DNA of 64,000 nucleotides from Kovacikia minuta CCNUW1. Lineage in GTDB: Bacteria; Cyanobacteriota; Cyanobacteriia; Leptolyngbyales; Leptolyngbyaceae. Below are positions 51,751 to 53,479 of the stretch, one piece after another. Position numbers and translations under genes: made by a program. Within the stretch, counting starts at the first letter, position 1. Each line of letters opens with the position of its first letter. The stretch covers positions 6,644,536 through 6,708,535 of the forward strand of contig NZ_CP083582.1 in assembly GCF_020091585.1 (NCBI RefSeq), in the 5' to 3' direction. Below the pieces are notes generated by a model. That model saw only the letters and a list, made by a program, of their open reading frames with translations. It had not been told where the DNA came from and did no database searches.

Positions 51751-53479
51751 AAGGGAGCAAAACCCAGACGGGCTTGCCTAGTGCTCCAGCCAGGTGAGCT
51801 ACAGCAGTATCTACGCTAATCACCAAATCAAGTTGGGTAATTACAGCAGCGGTGTCGGCAAAATCCTTTAGCTGTGGACTCAAATCTTGCAGTTGTTCCT
51901 CAAAACCAAATTGAGTAATATCTCTTGAATTTAGTCCAACCTGAAGGCTATACAGGGCAACTTTAGGAATGGACAGAAATTTCATAAAAGTTGGGAGAGG
52001 AATCGATTTCATTTTATGAATTCTCAAAAGACCTTTTGTTTTTCGATAACCGCTTGACCAGACGATGCCGACTTTGAGACCATTGGAAGATGGTTTTTCC
52101 AAAAAAATAGTCGTCTCTTCGGGAGGTGATAAATAAGGTACTTGCCAGGGTACCTGATTGGGCATTTCTTGAAGGACAAAAGGCAAACTTAAGAGTGGCA
52201 AATGCCAATCGACATCAGGAAAAAAGTCTGTTTGATAAGTGAATTGAATATCAGGAATGCCAGTTAATAGTCTAACCAGTTCCTTGGAGCACGCCACCAT
52301 GACTTCCCCATTACGCTGGCTCACTCTAGAGGCATACCGGATGAACTGAATCGTATCTCCAAACCCTTGCTCTGCATAAAGCAAAATCTTCTGACCTTGG
52401 AGATCTCTGCCATCCCAGCGTTTTCCTGGTAGTGGTGGAAGTTGGGTTGAAGCACATCGCCAACGCCACTCATATTCTGCAAATCCCTTTGGAAAATCTC
52501 CGACCGCAAGTAGTGCATTGCTTAAATTAAAGTGGGCTTCAGCGAAGTCAGGATTGGCAGCTATAGCCAATTGGTAGTGAGTGATTGCTCCTTTTACATC
52601 ACCTTTCTGGTAAAGCATTACCCCTAAATTGCTTTGCAACTCAGCATGATCTGGGTTCTGTGTAGCTGCTTGCTGCAAATGCGAAATCGCTGTTTCAATT
52701 TGTCCATTTTCCTCAAAACTTAGCGCCAAATTATTATGGGCGTCTATAAAAGTGGGATCGATTTCGAGTACTCGTTGATAGCAGTTGATCGCTGTATCAA
52801 ACTGTTCCAATTCTCGCCAGCTACTAGCCAAATTAAATAGAATATTAATATTGTTGGGATGGTATTCTAGAGCCTGACTGTAGGTTGCGATCGCAAGTTC
52901 AAATTGTTTTTGATCTTGCAAAAAAGTTCCTAAATCAATGTGAAACTCAGATATTTCAGGAGAAGCTGCGATCGCTTGCTATAAGCAAGCGATCGCAGCT
53001 TCAATTTGTCCCTGTTCTTGCAAAGCTTTACCCAAATTGTGATGAGCTTTTGCATAACCGGGGTTCAGGGCAATTGCCTGTTGGTAATGGGAGATCGCAG
53101 CGTTTAACTCCTTTTGTTCCAGTCGCAAATTGCCCAGATTAAAGTGAGTTGGGGCATGGAGGGGATTCAGTTCCAGAGAAATTTGGAAGTGTCGTGCAGC
53201 AGATTCCAAATTGCCCTGATTGTGCAAAGTCACTGCTAGATTCCCGTGAGCTTCAGCGTGCTTGGGATCAAGCGCAATAACCTGTTGGAAGCGAGTAACG
53301 GCTGTTTCTGGTCTGCCCGTTTGGTGGGCGATCGCTCCCAGTAAATGGAGTGCGGGGATATAATTCGGCTGTTGCTCAATGATCTGTGAACAAATCCACT
53401 CTGCTTCAAACAGATTTCCAGATTGATATAACTGGAAAGCATTTTTCATGACTCCAGGGATGAAATTCAGTTCAAACAT
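51596..53479 (-). pseudogene. TPR-glycosyltransferase-like gene interrupted by an in-frame TAG
   Basis: Start ATG 53479, with AGGGA upstream. The N-terminal part has about four TPRs (AEAHGNLAVTLHNQGNLESAARHFQISLELNP) and stops at TAG 52979-52981. The same frame then continues (QAIAASPEISEFHIDLGTFLQDQKQFELAIATY) through more TPRs to a GT-B-like C-terminal domain ([52 protein letters not shown]) ending at 51596. A CAG to TAG change would explain it. The stop lies inside a 41-bp palindrome. Restored product about 627 residues. Confidence 0.85.
52962..53002. repeat. 41-bp palindrome containing two HIP1 octamers
   Basis: Perfect 19-bp arms (52962-52980 and 52984-53002) around the 3-nt centre ATA. 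Each arm contains GCGATCGC. The in-frame stop of the TPR-glycosyltransferase gene lies at its centre. Confidence 0.9.

Follow-up and report, generated by a model that had tools for sequence, protein, structure and literature searches.

A TPR-glycosyltransferase frame with an internal stop

The window analyzed here, a stretch of 64,000 nucleotides from the genome of Kovacikia minuta CCNUW1, contains on its reverse strand a long reading frame that combines TPR repeats with a C-terminus resembling glycosyltransferase family 9 (Table 1). The frame has its first ATG at 53545; judging from the alignment with the N-termini of the homologues, translation probably starts at the ATG at 53479 (MFELN...). 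Both halves match TPR families. With its TPR array and the Glyco_transf_9-like domain behind it, the frame corresponds in layout to the cyanobacterial TPR-glycosyltransferase (SPINDLY/GT9-like) genes; it differs from them in being broken by a single stop, which among the genomes compared is the case only in K. minuta.

Table 1. Features of the interrupted frame and its hairpin (window coordinates).
Feature	Position	Strand	Description
TPR + glycosyltransferase-family-9-like frame, interrupted	51596..53545	-	650 codons, one internal stop
Upstream half	52979..53545	-	TPR repeats only, up to the TAG
Downstream half	51596..52978	-	more TPRs and Glyco_transf_9-like C-terminus (PF01075, E 4.3e-6)
Palindrome, 41 bp	52962..53002	.	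19-bp perfect arms, 3-nt spacer
Coding 5' arm, GAAGCTGCGATCGCTTGCT	52984..53002	-	TPR positions 18-24, putative donor
Coding 3' arm, AGCAAGCGATCGCAGCTTC	52962..52980	-	TPR positions 25-31, putative recipient
Spacer, coding-strand TAT	52981..52983	-	inverted form ATA
HIP1 in coding 3' arm	52968..52975	.	Ala27-Ile28-Ala29
HIP1 in coding 5' arm	52989..52996	.	Ala20-Ile21-Ala22
Premature TAG	52979..52981	-	TPR helix-B position 25

The best homologues, from six genomes belonging to the same family, each consist of one open frame (626-655 codons, 48-53% identity), and none of the 60 matching frames listed contains a stop codon. Because these six homologues are single open frames, the K. minuta frame is very probably one interrupted gene, and the alternative raised in the initial annotation, that the two halves are separate genes, is not borne out. 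In the alignment, the position before the stop is occupied by Tyr or Phe in six of six homologues and by Leu in K. minuta; Gln26 and Ala27 follow directly after the stop. The first in-frame start codon beyond the TAG is a TTG at 52921, 19 codons on, with 18 codons devoid of any start in between. No second lesion was found across the 650 codons, and from this single lesion we infer that the break is probably recent. The full-length glycosyltransferase is likely to have been lost in CCNUW1.

The hairpin and its HIP1 sites

The stop overlaps a palindrome, described in the initial annotation as 41 bp long with perfect 19-bp arms and one GCGATCGC in each, and it is recovered in exactly this form. 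The stop had also been placed at the palindrome center: the TAG is indeed the single one in the frame, but the center is base 52982 and the codon lies off it, with the T alone (base 52981) in the spacer and the A and G in the 3' arm. Folded as DNA, the hairpin has an energy of -25.8 kcal/mol (z about -9). All genome-wide figures given here rest on a 2.46-Mb sample, about 29% of the genome, in which the count of perfect palindromes (arms of at least 15, spacers of at most 20) is only 60, most of them intergenic; the palindrome in the window is the longest of these in a clear coding frame.

Other explanations of the hairpin were discarded. An intrinsic terminator is not supported, since the hairpin is absent from the terminator-like list and has a T run on neither side; nor is a mobile or repeated element, as the hairpin core is single-copy in the genome and the sole other match has three mismatches and belongs to another TPR helix (AIAAYQQAI...). 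Compared with Rfam at gathering thresholds, the hairpin matched no known structured RNA, and the search of a plasmid collection returned no match.

HIP1, described as the highly iterated palindrome of cyanobacteria (PMC4390886), is represented in the window by 48 exact sites against 0.63 expected, and in the genome sample its density is 0.77 per kb. Read in frame, the motif encodes Ala-Ile-Ala. This tripeptide suits positions 20-22 and 27-29 of TPR helix B, seven codons apart, and hence HIP1 pairs come to lie 21 bp from each other. Of 148 distinct HIP1 pairs at most 60 bp apart in related loci, 91 have this spacing, far more than have any other; the loci had been chosen mostly as TPR-protein genes, and 30 of them by the 21-bp spacing itself. 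One such pair, GCGATCGC GCAGTATCGGCAG GCGATCGC, is located in the same TPR repeat of the homologue L111 (genome G034), again with the sites 21 bp apart; its flanks are unsymmetric, and the L111 protein is only about 50% identical to the K. minuta frame.

Any HIP1 pair automatically forms an 8-bp inverted repeat. In the window pair, the symmetry continues past HIP1 for six bases outward and five inward, i.e. 11 bases, and the frequency of at least 11 extra symmetric bases among randomly matched HIP1 sites of the K. minuta genome is 1.5e-5. For the 91 distinct 21-bp pairs of other loci, symmetric flanking bases number at most five, compared with 11 in the window pair. The symmetry of the window pair is not due to chance. 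Across the 2.46 Mb, three out of 52 HIP1 pairs at most 60 bp apart extend by at least nine bases, where the control frequency is 8e-5 and about 0.004 cases are expected. Close HIP1 pairs in the K. minuta genome thus seem prone to extended symmetry, three cases being few.

Besides the window pair, this trio comprises one pair in a Ser/Thr protein kinase frame and one outside open frames of at least 80 codons. The former is a second HIP1-bearing coding palindrome (L195:7262-7302; G000:C1 about 1347262-1347302) with 17-bp arms, AAGGTTGCTGCGATCGC, and a 7-nt spacer; it lies within a membrane-helix stretch (KVAAIALSAIAATF) and contains no stop. The latter (G000:C1 about 3176103-3176149) has 17-bp arms and a 13-nt spacer, and its symmetry may reflect selection for extragenic hairpins.

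Origin of the stop codon

The two arms differ in how well they agree with the TPR motif, according to residue and codon counts from an HMM survey of 1071 TPRs from related loci and 75 from the K. minuta genome. The 5' arm reads E-A-A-I-A-C plus the first base of Leu24 and is consensus-like: Glu18-Ala19-Ala20 occurs in 60 of the 1071 repeats and in eight of the 75. The atypical residues, namely Leu24, stop25, Ala30 and Ser31, belong to the 3' arm and the spacer. Ala30-Ser31 in the outer 3' arm is present in two of the 1071 repeats and in none of the 75, and more than 90% have a hydrophobic residue (L, I, V, M, Y, F or C) at position 30. Ala30 by itself is no great rarity, being present also in another repeat of the protein; Leu at position 24 is found in seven of the 75 K. 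minuta TPRs. Because Ala30-Ser31 is rare and position 30 is usually hydrophobic, the 3' arm appears to be the odd one, as if it were a copy of the 5' arm. This would fit fold-back quasipalindrome correction, an indication that is weak by itself. The inner five symmetric bases (TTGCT/AGCAA) count against a template switch, for they are largely the natural codons for Cys-Tyr-x-Gln. We consider homogenization of the arms to be likely, presumably from the 5' arm to the 3' arm. The initial annotation had suggested templating by the palindrome as a possible source of both the symmetry and the stop. As to the symmetry, this agrees with an extension far beyond the controls and with the changed-looking residues of the 3' arm, which are the ones that a copy of the 5' arm would produce; as to the stop, it is plausible and has precedents in yeast, and a plain C-to-T change fits too.

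We hypothesize that the ancestor possessed one uninterrupted TPR-glycosyltransferase gene, in which a single TPR helix B carried two HIP1 sites in frame, 21 bp from each other, that together constituted a quasipalindrome. During replication, a template switch of the polymerase inside this quasipalindrome would have placed a reverse-complement copy of the 5' arm on the 3' side; the spacer would have been copied likewise, most likely in the same event or in a later one. The outcome would be perfect arms and an inverted 3-nt spacer, by which TAT AAG (Tyr24-Lys25) becomes TTA TAG (Leu-stop), and a single switch that copied the 5' arm together with the spacer would yield Leu24, stop25, Ala30 and Ser31 all at once. 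According to this model, the ancestral codon pair was TAT AAG, instead of the CAG expected in the initial annotation; these codons are a reconstruction, the genus being represented by one genome in the collection. The explanation as a whole, in which the event, its direction and the spacer-inversion origin of the stop are all deduced, has in our judgment about an even chance of being correct. For its last element, the inversion of the spacer as the cause of the stop, belief and doubt are likewise balanced: we favor it, and it is not proven.

Read on the opposite strand, the core of the palindrome gives AIACYKQAI, which is a standard TPR helix B. When HIP1-to-HIP1 segments of helix B were inverted in silico, 34 out of 46 (the reversed window segment included) gained a stop, and in 31 of the 46 it fell on the same codon as the window TAG, because Tyr24 (TAY) gives TA on the other strand. 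The 2.46 Mb contain 42 in-frame stops flanked by coding signal on either side, of which about 16 are followed by 13 codons without a start; the window TAG alone among the 42 falls into an inverted repeat (8 bp or longer). Since only this one stop lies in an inverted repeat and long coding palindromes amount to a handful in the sample, a stop linked to the palindrome is favored. Codon statistics were rejected as proof of spacer inversion: TATAAG occurs in two of the 1071 TPRs, as does TTA preceding a codon one step away from TAG.

An ordinary nonsense mutation would require less, i.e. a single C-to-T change from an ancestral Leu-Gln (TTA CAG) to TAG; the palindrome would then be a separate product of chance or of earlier template switching, and a bystander or mild hotspot. 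TTA CAG is present at the same TPR position in two of the 1071 repeats, and other interrupted frames of the genome, located outside inverted repeats, illustrate that nonsense mutations occur without palindromes. Yet one of about 16 gene-interrupting stops would have to coincide with one of the few long coding palindromes of the 2.46 Mb, and TTA-coded Leu24 is found in no TPR of the K. minuta genome, which leaves this origin somewhat unlikely. Strong hairpins upset polymerases and base calling, and the true sequence might be stop-free, with the spacer miscalled or inverted during sequencing or assembly. The assembly is, however, near-complete (3 contigs, completeness 100), a spacer flip in graph assembly would presumably require k-mers of about 19 or less, and the atypical Ala30-Ser31 in the arm would be left unaccounted for; an artefact is in our opinion clearly unlikely.

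Both halves might also be functional as proteins of their own, the first consisting of TPRs only and the second being a TPR-glycosyltransferase translated separately from a restart at TTG 52921, or the stop might be read through. Neither half has any other damage, the dicodon scores of both are coding-like, and an AGGA stands six bases upstream of the TTG. Against this, the homologues compared are single frames without exception, the codons just past the stop offer no start, and the break falls inside a TPR helix, while the TTG would sit in a regular TPR; such an arrangement is quite improbable. A reversible on/off switch, in which repeated spacer flips at the perfect hairpin alternate between Tyr-Lys (on) and Leu-stop (off), has a counterpart in the spacers of yeast SPO75 and YBZ1, which flip both ways on perfect repeats (PMC8604942), and the off form is one flip away from a consensus TPR. 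Yet a second example was not seen in the 2.46-Mb sample of the K. minuta genome, and the rates of flipping by template switching are probably too low for a useful switch; we give this notion hardly any credence. It is also a highly improbable conjecture that, in HIP1-rich cyanobacteria, the geometry of TPR helix B repeatedly makes 21-bp HIP1 pairs that serve as hairpin seeds, and that spacer flips in the matured hairpins switch TPR genes off and on through a reversible nonsense codon, with no recombinase involved.

Known systems and other palindromes of the genome

The favored combination of template switch and spacer inversion has parallels in other organisms. Ten spacer inversions have been described from coding repeats of yeast, mostly on already perfect arms and some recurring in both directions; in REG2, the inversion was accompanied by simultaneous homogenization of the arms (PMC8604942). 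The K. minuta locus shares with these cases (Abraham and Hazkani-Covo 2021, PMC8604942) the short coding inverted repeat, the spacer of few bases and the perfect derived arms, and presumably also the replacement of several bases by the reverse complement of the spacer. Inversion of a spacer by template switching presupposes that a short spacer is enclosed by perfect arms of about 10 bp or more; here, the arms measure 19 bp and the spacer 3 nt. In yeast, the ancestor is known from strains and the changes are amino-acid replacements (PMC8604942), whereas in K. minuta the ancestor is reconstructed, the product is a stop and the seed would be a HIP1 pair. For E. coli, quasipalindromes have been reported as hotspots of template switching (PMC7202029). 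The likeness to quasipalindrome mutation in this species (PMC7202029; Ripley model) consists in the copying of one arm from the other, which turns an imperfect repeat into a perfect one; the E. coli reporters score frameshift correction (PMC7202029), whereas the K. minuta case would be a spacer inversion and is known from sequence alone.

The mutation mechanism is already known, and the HIP1 pair as a quasipalindrome seed placed by TPR geometry is a modest new element. Passages of the HIP review (PMC4390886), consulted in a literature search that was not exhaustive, say nothing about paired HIP1 sites seeding hairpins or quasipalindromes, nor do these passages contain the words 'hairpin', 'inverted repeat' or 'tetratricopeptide'. 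If true, the model would provide a concrete route from the unexplained abundance of HIP1 to mutation, via the spacing of two sites by 21 bp in TPR helix B. Template switching at a HIP1 pair would perfect the hairpin and tend to knock out the gene, because a reversed Tyr24 reads as part of a stop. By itself, the locus represents one disrupted gene; the testable question that it opens is whether template switching in cyanobacteria is concentrated at HIP1 pairs.

The genome contains further palindromes. At 37112-37151 of the window, near one end of a 107-codon frame, there is a perfect, spacerless palindrome of 40 bp (TGAGATCCCCAGCTTCTTCT and its complement), similar to a family (AGATCCCCGGATTCTT, CAGATCCCCGACTTTT etc.) that is present many times in the genome and probably represents a REP-like element. 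Another recurrent family, TTGTGAGNNAGGATTCC and its complement, has at least eight copies in the 2.46-Mb sample, nearly always outside open frames. Apart from the palindromes, five in-frame stops flanked by coding signal on either side are clustered within 10 kb at G000:C1 about 6430593-6440254 (L159, L160), which suggests a decaying gene cluster.
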